This document shows, one piece after another, positions 10,223-20,128 of a stretch of 40,843 nucleotides of DNA (the first letter of the stretch is position 1; each line of letters starts with the position of its first letter). Source of the DNA: Methanosarcina sp. (GTDB lineage Archaea > Halobacteriota > Methanosarcinia > Methanosarcinales > Methanosarcinaceae); NCBI RefSeq assembly GCF_028693135.1, contig NZ_JAQUVZ010000033.1:1-40843 (forward strand), in the 5' to 3' direction. The notes beneath the pieces were generated by a model. It did not search any database, was not told the DNA's origin, and saw nothing but the letters and a program-made list of their open reading frames with translations. The position numbers and the translations under genes were made by a program.

Positions 10223-10714
10223 ATGGACGAAATTATTCGACATATACTGGAAATTCTTGAAAATGATGCCCGAACAAGTCCGGAAGAAATTGCAACCCTG
10301 ACAGGAACGTCTGCACAGGAAATTTCCCAGACGATCGCAAAGCTTGAAGAAACAGGAGTTATTCGGCATTATAAGACTATAGTTGATTGGGACCTTGTTG
10401 GGGAAAACTATGTTTACGCCGTAATTGAGTTGAAGGTCACTCTCGAGCGTAACCAGGGCTATCAGGCAATTGCAGAAAGGATCTATAAGTTTCCGGAAGT
10501 CAGATCTGTCAGGCTTCTGTCCGGAAACTATGACATCTCCCTTACCGTCCGGGGAAAGTCAATGAAAGATGTAGCTTTTTTTGTGGCAGAAAAAATCGCC
10601 ACCCTTGACCAGATCCAGAGTACGTCCACGCATTTCGTGCTGAAGACCTATAAGGAAGATGGGGTAATCCTCCACGAACCCGAGTCAATTACAAGGCTCC
10701 CGATCTCGTTTTAA
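10223..10714 (+). CDS. Lrp/AsnC-family transcriptional regulator
   Basis: About 163 residues. The N-terminal winged helix (LEILENDARTSPEEIATLTG, then IAKLEETGVIRHYKTIVDW) is the standard AsnC-type DNA-binding unit. The C-terminal half is the RAM ligand/oligomerisation domain (VYAVIELKV, PEVRSVRLLSGNYDISL). ATG 10223 is used because the frame upstream of it offers only a non-ATG start and GGTG lies just before it. The neighbouring aminotransferase gene 83 bp downstream is a plausible target or operon partner, a pairing common in archaea. Confidence 0.92.
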   Translation: MDEIIRHILEILENDARTSPEEIATLTGTSAQEISQTIAKLEETGVIRHYKTIVDWDLVGENYVYAVIELKVTLERNQGYQAIAERIYKFPEVRSVRLLSGNYDISLTVRGKSMKDVAFFVAEKIATLDQIQSTSTHFVLKTYKEDGVILHEPESITRLPISF

Positions 10715-12881: not shown

Positions 12882-13565
12882 ATGAAGCCCATTATCCCTG
12901 AAGATGAACGTTCCGAAGAACCTCTTGATACAGAGAGAATAATTTACCATCCTGACATGATAAAAGCCAATGAATGGGTTCTCAATGAGTATGAAGCTCC
13001 TTTCAGGGAAGTCTGTATTTTTGTTCCCTGCGCCAAGAGAAAACCTTACCATGAAAGCCCATCCCATAAAAAATTTGACAGGATAATTTTTGGGATTGCA
13101 AAGCCCGAGGATGTACACATAGTGACCTTCGGCACCTGCGGAATTGCCCCAAGGGAACTTGATACTCAGTACCCTTTTATGAACTACACTTTCATGATGG
13201 GCAAATGCAATGTGACAAAGATCAAGAGAGACTTTATAAAAATAGAAAGTGAGAGGATTGCCGCTTATCTTGAAAAGACAAGGGCAAACCACAGGCACAG
13301 GATAGCATACTGTATAGGGGATTTTCGAACTGCAATGGAAAAAGCCCTGGAAATGGTTGACATCAAAGTGGATATTGTCCCGAGAGAATCCACAATTCAG
13401 AGGATGATCCAGCCCGATAAAGCCTTCATTTACAATAGCCTCTCATCTAAAGAGTACCTTCAAGACTTTTCCGATGCGATAACGACAGCCTTAAAACTCC
13501 CCGCAAGGGAAGTTGGCCTCCGGGAAGACATGTCTGTTGACGATACAGACTGGTACGTCCTGTGA
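12882..13565 (+). CDS. DUF5591 domain protein (related to part of archaeosine synthase)
   Basis: 227 residues. The segment CIFVPCAKRKPYHESPSHKKF and the downstream GTCGIAPRELDTQYPF are the hallmark motifs of the DUF5591 domain, which is also found in ArcS, the enzyme that completes archaeosine at tRNA position 15. Only this domain is present here, without a TGT-like or PUA domain. A tRNA- or nucleoside-modification role is inference. ATG 12882 opens the frame; the preceding 20 bases lack a strong Shine-Dalgarno (weak TGAGG). Confidence 0.72.
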   Translation: MKPIIPEDERSEEPLDTERIIYHPDMIKANEWVLNEYEAPFREVCIFVPCAKRKPYHESPSHKKFDRIIFGIAKPEDVHIVTFGTCGIAPRELDTQYPFMNYTFMMGKCNVTKIKRDFIKIESERIAAYLEKTRANHRHRIAYCIGDFRTAMEKALEMVDIKVDIVPRESTIQRMIQPDKAFIYNSLSSKEYLQDFSDAITTALKLPAREVGLREDMSVDDTDWYVL

Positions 13566-13808: not shown

Positions 13809-13958
13809 TCAGAACTTCGATACGAAGGTCCTTGCCTGCCAGAGGGCAATAACTGCCAGGATAAGGATCAGGACCATCCACATGGTGTTCGCTCCCGGGA
13901 TAACGGAATTTACCCAGTAAGCATTGTAAGCTTCCATAGCAGCTGCCGTTTGTACCAT
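13809..13958 (-). CDS. 49-residue single-helix membrane protein at the end of the mtt operon
   Basis: Small protein with a polar N-terminus (MVQTAAAMEAYNAYW), one membrane helix (MWMVLILILAVIALW) and a short basic tail (QARTFVSKF). The start at ATG 13958 is favoured because GGAGG lies 8 bases upstream; longer frames to 13985 or 14000 would include that site. An upstream ATG at 13985 overlaps the preceding stop. It is the last gene of mttB-mttC-mttP-winged helix, so a role in amine uptake or permease assembly is inferred from position only. Confidence 0.68.
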   Translation of the reverse strand: MVQTAAAMEAYNAYWVNSVIPGANTMWMVLILILAVIALWQARTFVSKF

Positions 13959-13977
13959 ATTTTGTTCCTCCGTACCT

Positions 13978-14280
13978 TTAGACATACCTGATACAGGCAT
14001 CCGAGCCCCGGACCTTTCCGAAGTCGGTGATCACGTATTTGTGCAGCAGGAAATCTTTTTTGTAAATTCCCTTCTCATCGACTTTCTGTTCCACGTCTTT
14101 CAGCATCCCCCCGGATGCCAGTTCGATGATATCAAAGTTGATGCTGTCCCTGCCGTAGGCGCTTTTCATATCATATTCCTCCTGGATTTTTGAAACGATT
14201 TCGTAGTTCCAGTGTCCTTCCCCATCAAGGAATAGCTCCAGGATCCTGAACTTTATCGGACGGTTTTTGCCCACTTTCAC
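13978..14280 (-). CDS. Winged-helix-like small protein downstream of mttP
   Basis: About 98-100 residues. The segments IKFRILELFLDGEGHWNYEI and GRDSINFDIIELASGGML look like the helices of a winged-helix fold, and KDFLLHKYVITDFGKVR could be the wing. I do not recognise a family. The GTG at 14280 overlaps the mttP stop TGA, but GTG 14274 has better spacing (7 bases) from GAGGTG. Translational coupling to mttP is likely. It may be a regulator of methylamine genes or an accessory to the permease. Confidence 0.65.
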   Translation of the reverse strand: MKVGKNRPIKFRILELFLDGEGHWNYEIVSKIQEEYDMKSAYGRDSINFDIIELASGGMLKDVEQKVDEKGIYKKDFLLHKYVITDFGKVRGSDACIRYV

Positions 14281-15323
14281 TCACCTCTCAGGGTTTCAAG
14301 TGCGCTTGTTTCTTCCGTAAACATGACGAAGCTACCAATAACACAGAGGGTACCTCCGACAAGGATGGTCCACTGCGGGACATCTCCGAAGAAGAGGAAA
14401 ATGAAGATAATAGCAAACAAGCCGTAGAGGTTTCCAATACCCTGGCCTCTTCCGACCCCAATAAGCGGGAAGGACTTGTACCAGCAGACATAACAGAAAC
14501 CAAAAGTAATCCCTGCGAAAATCAGGACCAGCATGGTAAAGGGTTCAAATGCCTGGAGTGCAAAGGAATACATCGGATAGCCAACTATTGCCAGGATTGG
14601 CACGATAATGATCCACCAGATAATGTTTTCTCCCAGGAACCTGAGAGTCAGCCCAACGTCAGGCTCGGAAATATCGAGACCTTTGCCTGCGATTGCACCT
14701 TCAATGCCCCAGCCAGCAGCAGCCATCAAACCTCCAAGGTATCCGATCCACTGGACATTGCCTGAGGAAAGCTCAGTCAGAAGCCCGCCTCCGAAGATCG
14801 TGACACCTCCTACAATGATGACTCCTATACCGATTGCCGCTCTCCTGGAGATCTTTTCTCCGTACCAGTAGTAAGCAAGCACCGAGCCAACCACAGGGTA
14901 AAGAAGAGCTGCAACAGCTGCAAATGCTCCGCCTATAAAGCCCATAGCAATGAATGAACCGAGAATAGCCATCGGGCCTCCGAAAATCGAGGCCAGGAAG
15001 AACCACTTGGAACACGGATGGAATTCCTTAAGGGTCCTACCGAGTTCCCCGTATTTACCAAGCACCCCATTCCAGAGCATAAGCGCTAGCATGACCGTAA
15101 GTGCATTAAAGGCCGTAATCAGCACGGCAGTTATAATAAGAGCTGTGCCGTCCCCTCCGGTTTCGGCAATGGCGCTGTACATCTCATCGAACGGATTAAG
15201 CACCCACACAACAGTTCCCGGCAGGTACCAGATGCCCCAGAACACAGCACAAAAAAGTGCCCACATATACCCTTTGCTGATTTTTCGTTTGCTTTCCTGC
15301 GCTTTCAAAGCTTTCAGATCCAT
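14277..15323 (-). CDS. mttP: Trimethylamine permease MttP
   Basis: 348 residues, about ten hydrophobic helices of the drug/metabolite transporter (EamA-like) type, for example ALFCAVFWGIWYLPGTVVWV near the N-terminus and WTILVGGTLCVIGSFVMF near the C-terminus. Methanosarcina methylamine permease genes lie directly after mttC, as here. Substrate specificity for trimethylamine is inferred from operon position. ATG 15323 has GGGGGAG 5-6 bases upstream. A 98-bp spacer with a strong hairpin separates it from mttC, and its stop overlaps the next gene. Confidence 0.85.
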   Translation of the reverse strand: MDLKALKAQESKRKISKGYMWALFCAVFWGIWYLPGTVVWVLNPFDEMYSAIAETGGDGTALIITAVLITAFNALTVMLALMLWNGVLGKYGELGRTLKEFHPCSKWFFLASIFGGPMAILGSFIAMGFIGGAFAAVAALLYPVVGSVLAYYWYGEKISRRAAIGIGVIIVGGVTIFGGGLLTELSSGNVQWIGYLGGLMAAAGWGIEGAIAGKGLDISEPDVGLTLRFLGENIIWWIIIVPILAIVGYPMYSFALQAFEPFTMLVLIFAGITFGFCYVCWYKSFPLIGVGRGQGIGNLYGLFAIIFIFLFFGDVPQWTILVGGTLCVIGSFVMFTEETSALETLRGE

Positions 15324-15421: not shown

Positions 15422-16075
15422 TCAGCGCTTCAGGGCTGCCTTTACCTTGGTGACGGCATCTGTTGCACTTTCTCCGTAGATGTTTGCCCCTATCTTGTCA
15501 GCCCAGTCCTGGGTAACCGGAGCTCCTCCTACCATGGTCTTGATCTTATCGCGAATACCTGCTTCTTTGAGCTGTTCTTCGATCTGGATCTGGTTTATCA
15601 TGGTGGTGGTCATAAGGGCGGAAGATGCAACAATGTCGGGTTTGAGTTCCTTTGCCTTTTCAACGAAGACCTTGACGGCCACGTCTCTTCCGAGGTCCAC
15701 CACTTCAAAGCCCGCAATGTTGAGCATGGAGGCAACTATGTCCTTTCCGATGGAGTGGATGTCTCCTTCGATGGTCCCGATGACGACTGTTCCAAGCTTT
15801 GCGGTTTTGGATTTTCGCCTCTCCATCTCGGGGGTCAGAACGGCAACTCCTGCTTTCATTGCTTCTGCGGCTGCAAGCACGTGGGGCAGGAAAAGGGTCC
15901 CCTGCTCGAACTGTTCTCCGACTTCCAGCATGCCTGCAGTATAGCCGTGTTCGATGATTTCTACCGGGTCGATCTTGGCAGCAAGGGATTCATTTGCTGC
16001 TTCAGCTGCCATATCTTCATCAAACTCGGTGATCGAAGCTTTTGCTTTTGCTATAATCTCTTCTTTGCTTGCCAT
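15422..16075 (-). CDS. mttC: Trimethylamine corrinoid protein MttC
   Basis: 217 residues. An N-terminal helical cap (residues 1-90) is followed by a cobamide-binding Rossmann domain with the DxHxxG motif GDIHSIGKDIV (D105, H107, G110) and the later GGAPVTQDWADKIGA. The protein accepts the methyl group from trimethylamine via MttB and passes it on through MtbA to coenzyme M. ATG 16075 lies 2 bases after the mttB stop, with GGAGG inside the end of mttB. It resembles mtbC in this window along its whole length. Confidence 0.95.
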   Translation of the reverse strand: MASKEEIIAKAKASITEFDEDMAAEAANESLAAKIDPVEIIEHGYTAGMLEVGEQFEQGTLFLPHVLAAAEAMKAGVAVLTPEMERRKSKTAKLGTVVIGTIEGDIHSIGKDIVASMLNIAGFEVVDLGRDVAVKVFVEKAKELKPDIVASSALMTTTMINQIQIEEQLKEAGIRDKIKTMVGGAPVTQDWADKIGANIYGESATDAVTKVKAALKR

Positions 16076-16077
16076 TT

Positions 16078-17565
16078 TTATCCCTCCCTGAAGGTCCTGT
16101 CAGCCCTGTCAACAACTGCCTTCATGTCCTTGAGGATGTCTGCATCAATTGGTGGGACTTCGTGGTGCTTGAGGACATCCATCACCTTTTCGTTTGCTGC
16201 GGCCGCAAGGTCCTTTGAACCGGCTGCTGCCCAGTCACCGAACATGCGCCTGTCGATGAGCATGGGGTCGGACGGGTAGTTCACAAGCAGTCTCGTCTGC
16301 TTAAGGGCCAGGAAGTTGTTTCCGATTCCTACCTTCTGGATCGATTCGACTGCCAGGGTTTCGGTAGAAACCGGAATTCCCTGCATCGCTTTCTTGGTCA
16401 TTTTGATGATATCGTTGTCAATAACGAGCTGTTCCATGGAGAAGGTCATACCAAGCTCAAGCATCCCGGCGCCGTAGAGGGTGTTTGCCCCTGCGAGGGC
16501 GGGAAGGAGGCAGGTCATGGTCTTCTCGTGTCCAGCCTGGTTGTCAGGGATCTTTGCATCAGACTAGGTGCCTGCCACGAATGCGGGGAGGCCATAGAAC
16601 TGGGCGAGCTTTGCGACAGCAGCGCTTATCAGGCCGAGTTCGGGAGATCCGACAGGAGCAGTACCCTTCTTCAGGTCGAAGGTGGTGGTGGAACTTCCGT
16701 ACCATACTTTGGTTCCGGGAACTGTGAGTTGAGCGAGAGTAATACCGGAGAGGACTTCGGCATTGTGGGTCACAAGGGTCCCTGCAAGGTATACAGGAGA
16801 AGAACCCCCGGACATTGCCATACTCAAGACATTTACGGGGATGCCGAGGCGGGCACCCTTAATGATGACCTGACAGGCGTTGACACTCAGCTCAAGAGGG
16901 CTGGTCGGGCAGAGCAGCATGGAGAAGATCGGTTTTTTCCTTGCTTCTTCTTCATTGCCGCCGTAATAGGCTTTTGCGATGTCCCAGTAGTGTTCGACGT
17001 TTTCACCGACAGGGTCAATGTGGTGGAAGTGTTTTGCGGTGTTGGTAAGAGGGGTGAAGGTCTCATGGACGTCCTGGGCGCCTTTTCCGGCCCAGTCCCT
17101 GGCAGACACCGGGAGGGAGAAGTAGTCAATATTTTCGGCCCAGTCACAGAGCTTTGCAATGTCTGCAATGTCCTGCTCTACTGAGTCCACTGTGACGTAC
17201 TTCCCGTCCTTGTACCTGCACATCTTGACCCCTGTCCCGAAACAGGTCCAGTGCACCTTACCCCCTGACTCCTGTACGGTATTGTACTTCTTGTCGCGTC
17301 CCCAGAGCACGAACCTTGATGGTGCGAGCTGAAGGGCTCTTCTTACAAGATATTCGGGGATTTTCACGATCTGAGTCTTTTCGTCAACTTCACAGCCATT
17401 TTCCTTGAAGATCTTCCTTGCCTCAGGATCCGAAACCTGGATTCCGGGGTTCATCAGGACTTCCATTGTGGCGTAGTGGATGGCCTTTAGCTCATCACGG
17501 GTAAAAAGGTTCAGTTCCACGCCCTCAAGAGAATTAAATCCTGCAAATGCATTACATTGTGCCAT
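16078..17565 (-). CDS. mttB: Trimethylamine methyltransferase MttB with in-frame UAG (pyrrolysine)
   Basis: 495 residues when the amber codon at 16564-16566 is read through as pyrrolysine at position 334. The N-terminal part (333 codons from ATG 17565, [18 protein letters not shown]) and the C-terminal part (160 codons, beginning [15 protein letters not shown]) share one frame, and the total length equals known MttB proteins. MttB demethylates trimethylamine and methylates Co(I) of MttC; pyrrolysine sits in the active site of the TIM barrel. The UAG lies in the sequence context known for the family (after FVAGT). It starts the mttB-mttC-mttP unit after a ~500-bp leader. Confidence 0.96.
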
Positions 17566-18064: not shown

Positions 18065-19471
18065 TTACCTCCCGGTCTGTTTTCTAAAGAGATCGCAGGA
18101 GTTTATCTTGACGCCGAGCAGCTTTTCGATGTTCATCTTTGCAGCAATGCCTTTGGCTGCGCCGGGCACGGAGGTGATGACGCCAATATCAAGCTCTTCA
18201 CGCAGTTCTCTCATGACATGTTCGTCTGAGAGATCCATTGTGCCAACGTTAAGCTTCTTTGCCACGTAATCTTTTGCGTCTTTTATCCTCATGTTCTTTG
18301 AGAACTGCATCCTTGCTACAAGGTCGCCAGCTGCTCTTATCCCAGTCATCCCGGAAGCCATTATGTGTGCGATCGGCATACCCAGAGGGTCGCCGACCCC
18401 GACCTATATGCCATCGACTCTGGCAATCTCAACCATTGCCTTGCTGGCCCTGGTAACGGCATCTACCGGAGGAGTTTCAAGCATCGGGATTCCGCCGACT
18501 CCCATACCCATGTCAACGTGACAGGGCAGGGTTGAGACCTTTACGGCTTCTTTAATGAAGGTCACGGAGCGAGCCAGATTCCAGGCTGAGGTCTTGCTGG
18601 TGTTGGTGTTGACCACGGGCCCGAAAACATTTGCCCCGGCTTTTGCAATCAGGGGTGCCTGCTGGTGCGGCCAGAGCCCTGCAAGGGTCACACCGTCGTA
18701 CTGCAGGTTACCATGCATCCCGAGCACCATTTCCCCTGCCATCCCGGCTTCTATGTACATGTTCGGGAACTCTTTCCTGAGGGCTTCAATTGCATGGAGG
18801 GTCCCATAGAAGTCTGCATCCCCGGCTGCAGCTGTGGTGTCGAAGTTGACCCCATCCGCCCCCGAGGCAAAGAGCTTCTGCATGATCCAGACCGTATCCC
18901 TGGTAAGGTGTTCAGCTGCGTGCTCCATGGCGTCCCAGGCTTCCTGAATCTTGAAAGCCTTCATGAGATCTCCAGGGTTTTCGAAGGGTCCGTCCGGTGT
19001 ATAATACAGGCCCATGTTTGGCATTGCCCCGTAGAAGAGCGGGATAATCATGTTCTGCTGGCAGACTTCCATTGCCTGGCACTCATTTGAAACCACGGGT
19101 TTTACAGGTTTGTAGCTGTAGTCAATGTGCCCGAGCTCCATAGTGTCGGCCCCAAAAGCCCTTTCGTGCACCATGCAGCCCACAAGCCTGCTGGAGGGAA
19201 TCCCAACACCGCTGTTGCCCTGGTCCCCATCAAGCCTGATTGTACCAATGTCGTGGGTTACGGGCACTTCCATGCCATGTTCCACGCTGACAGCTTTTCC
19301 GGGCATCATAAGGATTTCTGCAAGTTTCTCAAGCTCGTTTCCGTCCAGGGCAGAAATCTCCCCGAGATCTGCAGCATGTGCAGTTCCGGCTTCGATCTCG
19401 CTTAGAATTTTTTCTTTGGTAAGGAAGATCCTCTTTCCGTCTCCCATCCTCAGAGCGTATTCTGTTGCCAT
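18065..19471 (-). CDS. mtbB: Dimethylamine methyltransferase MtbB with in-frame UAG (pyrrolysine)
   Basis: 468 residues if the amber codon at 18404-18406 is translated as pyrrolysine at position 356, which agrees with known MtbB. The N-terminal 355 codons begin [19 protein letters not shown] and end EIARVDGI; after UAG the frame continues [18 protein letters not shown]. The enzyme transfers a methyl group from dimethylamine to the corrinoid of MtbC. Its start lies 6 bases after the mtbC stop, so mtbC and mtbB are co-translated. A small GC hairpin follows the UAG by 4 bases. Confidence 0.96.
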
Positions 19472-19477
19472 TTATTC

Positions 19478-20128
19478 TCACTTCCCAAGGAGCAGTTCCT
19501 TTGCCTTTGCCACGGCTTCACTGGCGTTTTCTGCGTAGCAGTCTGCCCCTATCTTGTCAGCCCAGGCCTGGGTTGCAGGAGCTCCTCCAACCATAACCTT
19601 TACTCTCTCCCTCATACCTTCTTCTTTGAGGAGTTCGATTACCCCTTTTTGACCGGGAAGAGTTGTGGTCATAAGAGCTGAAAGCCCTATCATATTTGCA
19701 TTGACTTCTTTTGCCTTCTCGACAAAGTTCTTGATCGGGACATCCCTGCCGATGTCATGAACTTCAAATCCTGCAGACTGGAGCATGGTGGAGACTATGG
19801 ACTTGCCTATGTCGTGCACATCCCCCTCTACAGTCCCGTTAACAATGACTCCCATTGTCTTTTTTTGGGCGCCTGCAGGCATGTCCGCCTCAAGGATCTT
19901 GACCCCTGCAGTCATTGCATCGGCGGCCATCATCACGTGGGGCAGGAAAAGTTTTCCCCTCTCAAAGAGGACCCCTACCTGGTTCATCCCGGCAGCAAGC
20001 CCCTTTTCAATGATCTCAGCCGGTTCCATCACTCCTTTTGCCTTTTCTACAGCAGCAAGTACTGCATCCTTCTTACAGGAAATGATCGCATCCGAAAGTT
20101 CCTGAATTAATTCTTCTTTGCTTGCCAT
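19478..20128 (-). CDS. mtbC: Dimethylamine corrinoid protein MtbC
   Basis: 216 residues, with the same layout as MttC: helical cap, then cobamide-binding domain with GDVHDIGKSIV (D103, H105, G108) and GGAPATQAWADKIGA. It is the methyl acceptor for MtbB and lies directly upstream of mtbB. ATG 20128 is preceded by an A/G-rich AAAAAGGGGG about 5 bases away. It is the first gene after a leader of roughly 400 nt. Confidence 0.94.
   Translation of the reverse strand: MASKEELIQELSDAIISCKKDAVLAAVEKAKGVMEPAEIIEKGLAAGMNQVGVLFERGKLFLPHVMMAADAMTAGVKILEADMPAGAQKKTMGVIVNGTVEGDVHDIGKSIVSTMLQSAGFEVHDIGRDVPIKNFVEKAKEVNANMIGLSALMTTTLPGQKGVIELLKEEGMRERVKVMVGGAPATQAWADKIGADCYAENASEAVAKAKELLLGK

Follow-up and report, generated by a model that had tools for sequence, protein, structure and literature searches.

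The window, viz. the whole stretch of 40,843 nucleotides of Methanosarcina sp. DNA that was analysed, carries on its minus strand an operon for methylamine use, whose features are collected in Table 1. The genes listed as mttB and mtbB are those which we take to be such from their context and from established knowledge of MttB and the dimethylamine methyltransferase. At the downstream end of the operon, the 49-residue one-helix open reading frame reported in the first-pass annotation of this DNA was confirmed on the minus strand (MVQTAAAMEAYNAYWVNSVIPGANTMWMVLILILAVIALWQARTFVSKF*). The same annotation described this gene as closing an mttB-mttC-mttP operon and as coupled to the gene preceding it. 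The position in the operon, on the same strand, is upheld, but the description left out the gene for a 100-aa protein lying directly before the microprotein. The predecessor is thus this 100-aa ORF and not mttP. Its start, a GTG, and the mttP stop overlap by 4 nt, whereas the microprotein start lies 19 nt past the stop of the 100-aa ORF, so that the latter two genes are closely spaced and not overlapping. Neither the 100-aa ORF nor the microprotein of the window was assigned to any family in Pfam and NCBIfam scans, an Rfam search of the region gave no match, and a terminator scan yielded a single weak match on the plus strand and none on the operon (minus) strand. Convergent to the operon, positions 12882-13565 encode a DUF5591 protein, which resembles part of the archaeosine synthase ArcS and is much shorter than the models.

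Table 1. Features of the minus-strand operon, by position in the window (the span of the microprotein gene includes the stop codon)
Feature	Position	Strand	Basis
mtbC-like corrinoid protein, upstream of mtbB	19478..20128	-	
mtbB, presumed dimethylamine methyltransferase, in-frame UAG at 18404-18406	18065..19471	-	context and established knowledge
mttB, presumed trimethylamine methyltransferase, in-frame UAG (pyrrolysine) at 16564-16566	16078..17565	-	context and established knowledge of MttB
mttC, corrinoid protein	15422..16075	-	TIGR02370, 290 bits
mttP, DMT/EamA permease, 348 aa, 10 modelled transmembrane helices, closest solved relative the choline importer LicB	14277..15323	-	
100-aa winged-helix protein (PadR-like fold), no Pfam/NCBIfam family	13978..14280	-	
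Shine-Dalgarno GGAGG, 8 nt before the microprotein ATG (plus strand: CCTCC)	13967..13971	-	sequence
Microprotein gene, 49 aa	13809..13958	-	

The microprotein gene, its start and its anatomy

The start of the microprotein, which had been assigned on the basis of the GGAGG motif, is borne out by its relatives, as at least four of the five letters of GGAGG are found just upstream of the start in 93 of 100 of them. The longer start, about which the earlier annotation had cautioned, does exist in frame and would give a protein of 63 aa beginning at 14000. However, because the Shine-Dalgarno sequence stands at the 49-codon start in these 93 cases and the frame upstream of it is usually closed within 10 codons (0-10 codons upstream in 48 of 63 distinct relatives' sequences), the longer start is very probably not used in the source genome. 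The microprotein is encoded in 88 of the 112 Methanosarcinaceae genomes, and the source genome has a second copy of it (contig C84) which is 84% identical, with pS of 0.45 and pN of 0.097. For 717 pairs formed by 73 distinct microprotein genes the median dN/dS is 0.11, and the entropies of the three codon positions are 0.67, 0.40 and 1.28, the third positions being the most variable. The microprotein is thus a genuine coding gene under strong purifying selection.

In the window microprotein, a variable N-terminal segment is followed by a Pro-Gly-Ala-Asn cap, a transmembrane helix at about residues 25-42 and the tail R43-TFVSKF. Across the family the total length ranges from 36 to 56 aa, with all of the variation being N-terminal, and the alignment is free of gaps from a Pro some 29 residues short of the C-terminal end onwards, showing the pattern Pro-x-[AG]-[DE], a hydrophobic stretch and A-L-[WY]-x-A-R-x-F-x-x-x-[FI]. 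Of 101 distinct sequences, 99 have the Arg in this pattern, and in 100 the stretch after this position is exactly six residues long, although the rule by which the sequences were collected would have let three to seven residues follow. Before the helix the microprotein is acidic (mean charge -1.6), whereas its last nine residues are basic (mean charge +1.7); under the positive-inside rule this points to a cytoplasmic C-terminus. A test for a conserved face or stripe along the helix was not significant (p = 0.42 and 0.29). The effective number of microprotein sequences is about 27. When 23 of the microproteins were compared with the curated Pfam and NCBIfam models, none scored above the cut-off, the matches of single members to PF14600 and DUF6358 being rejected as below it, and a PDB search with the microprotein profile gave only a chance match.

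Linkage with the permease in archaea and bacteria

In the 112 Methanosarcinaceae genomes, all except one of the 113 microprotein matches have an MttP homologue upstream in the same orientation, at a distance of 187-648 nt (mostly 304-387), and no genome was found to have the microprotein without the permease. In the reverse direction, 112 of the 127 MttP-homologue matches are followed by the microprotein. These results support the earlier reading of this protein as permease-associated, which would have been contradicted by absence from other methylamine operons or by broken frames in relatives. The other 15 permease matches are fragments, distant paralogues, second permeases of tandem pairs, or the one true exception described below. 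The distant paralogues are counted here because their microprotein fell below the threshold of the first search, and on reading the loci most of the distant permeases (29-44% identical) do carry a microprotein, one example of which is MFHIEGIWAFAGADYVYLVLILLLDLLALYIGRTFTKKI. Among 160 full-length permeases of a broader collection, each with sufficient DNA downstream, an automatic rule placed both partner genes after 145, and several of the other 15 were positive on inspection.

The one true exception comes from plasmid pMETEV01 of Methanohalobium evestigatum (L067/L176), where an intact MttP between a recombinase and an IS630 transposase stands alone, with neither the winged-helix gene nor the microprotein. 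Further, in tandem MttP-like permeases (L071-L074) the gene order is permease 1, winged-helix gene, microprotein, permease 2, so that the second permease has the microprotein upstream and not downstream, and the two permeases may share one microprotein. One of these loci (L073) has two copies each of the winged-helix gene and the microprotein gene. Among disrupted loci, a permease with two stops precedes a microprotein frame-shifted right after the Arg (L081), the microprotein is intact behind a permease that is split (L080), and in a third case (L069) a permease fragment and part of the winged-helix gene are present. The expectation that the same microprotein would follow other mttP, mtbP and mtmP genes holds for distant DMT permeases adjoining mtbB- or mttB-type genes, but not for the MtmP of the source genome, a monomethylamine permease of the APC superfamily (468 aa). 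At this locus (L168:735-2647, contig C32 of the source genome), MtmP is followed by two small membrane-protein genes of 90 aa (with an overlapping start) and 78 aa, whose products matched no family and are unrelated to the microprotein. Small membrane proteins thus adjoin a second type of amine permease.

The occurrence of the microprotein is not limited to this family of methanogens, and the initial picture, which missed both the intervening 100-aa gene and the bacterial occurrences, was to this extent incomplete. In a scan of GTDB genomes, a Methanomassiliicoccus MAG and Pseudomonas sp. CC6-YY-74 proved to have the microprotein. A wider search with a profile built from 23 sequences was positive in the Methanomassiliicoccus class (12 of 200 genomes, the module being present in Methanomassiliicoccales), in one further family within the phylum of the window, in the Pseudomonas class (3 of 369 genomes) and in the Pseudomonas order (3 of 391); due to the sampling of genomes and the dependence on a short profile, these bacterial frequencies are lower bounds. 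A plasmid search with the Pseudomonas permease led additionally to Cupriavidus, Azoarcus and Paracoccus aminovorans. All of the eight bacterial loci (viz. Pseudomonas L064, L142, L143, L174 and L175, Azoarcus L171, Paracoccus L172 and Cupriavidus L173), which represent alpha-, beta- and gammaproteobacteria, contain the permease, the winged-helix gene and a microprotein of 36-37 aa, for example MSDFWGYAGADVLAIVIITALSLVALYHARTFVTKI. The gene for the 36-49-aa microprotein is absent from the annotation tables that were examined; two annotated plasmid records list the permease and the winged-helix gene and lack the microprotein, the gene table being known to be incomplete.

The genes beside the module differ between these organisms. 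In methanogens it adjoins mttBC and mtbBC or more distant homologues, whereas in Pseudomonas L064 and L174 a trimethylamine monooxygenase is found next to it (826 and 824 bits, respectively; equivalog cut-off 675). In one methanogen (L079, 5278-10337) genes for the choline TMA-lyase CutC (1673 bits against a cut-off of 1050) and for its activase (506 bits) come directly after the module. Behind the activase, at about 10478-10561, the microprotein C-terminus recurs in truncated form, which has the look of a scar left by a duplication. On plasmid IV of Paracoccus aminovorans (L172:1-9454), the module is preceded by genes for an aminomethyltransferase and an electron-transfer flavoprotein and by a heterodisulfide-reductase-like gene, which suggests a cluster for aerobic demethylation of methylated amines. 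The neighbours of the module thus all concern methylated amines, and as the enzymes vary while the permease and the microprotein stay together, it is the permease and not the enzyme that is the constant element. The MttP-type permease, the PadR-like winged-helix protein and the microprotein form one module across two domains of life.

Pairwise distances within this module are also correlated. Between permease and microprotein r is 0.914 over 108 modules, the best of 300 shuffles giving 0.19, and the distances of the winged-helix protein track those of the permease (r = 0.93) and of the microprotein (r = 0.86). However, these correlations (0.86-0.93) should not be interpreted as proof of either contact or common inheritance, as in part they reflect the latter as well as the former.

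Role of the microprotein beside the permease

MttP of the window matches the EamA domain PF00892 with 54.6 bits (gathering cut-off 28.2). Its AF2 model (pLDDT 87) has the DMT fold with all ten helices, and the best Foldseek matches of this model are LicB, SLC35B1, CST and YddG. The pneumococcal choline importer LicB (PDB 7b0k, 7paf), although about 60 residues shorter than MttP, is the closest by both profile (E 1.5e-17) and fold (TM 0.82 by target length), and this kinship supports the prediction of a methylated-amine substrate for MttP. That the microprotein provides a missing tenth helix was ruled out, as MttP alone models with ten; by this model the carrier appears complete without the microprotein, which would add an eleventh helix. 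For the 100-aa protein the model (pLDDT 91.5) shows a winged helix that most closely resembles the structures of PadR-type regulators (PDB 6abq, TM 0.67, E 7e-4; PDB 5x11, TM 0.65). The likeness to the PadR family is one of fold alone, since the window protein gave no match to PF03551 (PadR) above the gathering score and of 32 relatives one matched it, below the cut-off, at E 0.099.

Based on the recurrence of this three-gene unit in methanogens and in bacteria using methylated amines, the microprotein most likely belongs to the permease as a dedicated component, and we regard it as somewhat probable that it serves as a single-pass membrane subunit of the MttP-type (DMT) methylated-amine permease. 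From the features above we infer how contact, orientation and an effect on transport might be brought about. The microprotein would insert with its N-terminus outside and its C-terminus inside and would pack as an eleventh helix against the finished ten-helix permease; the short tail, which carries the near-invariant Arg and the fixed C-terminal end, would then dock on the cytoplasmic face of the permease, and in this position it could stabilise the permease or enable transport. However, a number of observations speak against a subunit. The need for one is not obvious, as LicB, which has no known small partner, and other DMT carriers in the PDB are not known to require a small subunit in order to function. 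The lone MttP of pMETEV01 and the tandem pairs, in which the microprotein precedes the second permease, also do not favour it, and the same is true of the helix lacking a significant conserved stripe and of a distance correlation that partly reflects shared ancestry. Further, MttP itself, although described as a trimethylamine transporter, is still unvalidated in this function (PMC11708041).

The main rival, which we consider possible but rather doubtful, is that the microprotein joins the PadR-like protein to the permease, so that the substrate or the transport state either controls the permease or frees the winged-helix protein for DNA. The M. mazei small protein sP36 provides a precedent for this (PMC10714827), and the location of the winged-helix gene, which in virtually all modules of both domains separates the permease from the microprotein, together with distances that track both of its neighbours, is in accordance with it, as is the pairing of the basic microprotein tail with an acidic winged-helix protein (mean charge -2.0). 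However, similarity to the PadR fold (TM 0.6-0.7) does not show DNA binding, and the co-conservation of three genes is equally well accounted for by a plain three-subunit complex. A tether of this kind and a subunit are not mutually exclusive. In its fullest form, which we view as unlikely, MttP, the PadR-like protein and the microprotein would constitute a membrane-bound sensor-transporter common to archaea and bacteria, in which the tether reads amine transport out as regulation.

Many small membrane proteins modulate transporters, and the microprotein could likewise be a negative modulator restraining the permease. This would explain why overexpression of M. mazei sORF_05, the counterpart considered below, slows growth when nitrogen is sufficient (PMC11456600). 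However, by its position the microprotein is co-transcribed with the permease and not separately controlled, and an overexpressed membrane peptide, without its partner and with a C-terminal tag, can be harmful for trivial reasons, which makes an inhibitor improbable. It is more improbable still that the microprotein acts elsewhere in the membrane (e.g. with the methyltransferases) and lies beside the permease only through operon history; the module does adjoin mttBC or mtbBC in most methanogens, but bacterial modules lacking MttB, which have Tmm or other aerobic genes instead, keep both permease and microprotein, and among these modules no loss of the microprotein accompanying the absence of MttB was seen. 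Lastly, that the ORF is spurious and without protein function, as its shortness and the absence of any Pfam or NCBIfam match might imply, is already refuted by the dN/dS of 0.11, the conserved start, a C-terminus conserved across two domains of life, and the ribosome profiling and western blot published for its counterpart (PMC11456600).

Of the steps of methylamine use, uptake is the one least well understood, MttP itself being no more than a putative trimethylamine carrier. If two such small partners are required, MttP expressed alone in a heterologous host could fail for that reason, and co-expression of all three genes is advisable. Tagging the C-terminus, as was done for sORF_05 (PMC11456600), would lengthen the very end which is conserved to the residue. 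The same three genes are found beside trimethylamine monooxygenase in Proteobacteria, which offers an experimentally easy system, and the modules in these bacteria point to an uncharacterised route of amine uptake in aerobic bacteria.

Comparison with known systems

Single-helix small subunits of transporters are exemplified by KdpF, AcrZ and MetS. In these cases, as proposed for the microprotein, a large transporter has a one-helix partner, but the transporter superfamilies differ, and none of the families of this type matched the microproteins in the Pfam and NCBIfam scans.

The closest known case is sORF_05 of M. mazei (MM_RS18880), a translated ORF that was detected by ribosome profiling and whose product is recovered largely with the membranes (PMC11456600; Tufail et al. 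2024). Its operon consists of the trimethylamine permease MM_1691, the hypothetical MM_1692 and then the small ORF, and its authors speculate that it is a subunit of the trimethylamine permease (PMC11456600). In the window, a putative trimethylamine permease and one hypothetical gene similarly precede the microprotein in a methylamine operon, and the two share genus, a single hydrophobic helix and a second genomic copy; the window gene is identified as the counterpart of sORF_05 by this operon position and not by sequence. The gene is therefore already published in M. mazei, and for the M. mazei locus tags no further paper was found in the open-access literature. However, the relatives described by Tufail et al. 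are from Methanosarcinaceae only, and their paper (PMC11456600) describes neither the copies in bacteria and Methanomassiliicoccales nor the constant length of the C-terminal end, nor what kind of protein MM_1692 encodes. These aspects, viz. the three-gene module, its wider occurrence, the fixed C-terminal end and the fold of the MM_1692-type protein, are what is added here.

A second comparison is provided by sP36 of M. mazei, which mediates the interaction between GlnK1 and AmtB1 (PMC10714827). Unlike the microprotein, sP36 is 61 aa long and shuttles between cytoplasm and membrane, and no sequence kinship between them is claimed. The parallel is a functional one, as here likewise, and in the same genus, a small protein is combined with a transporter and a small soluble protein.
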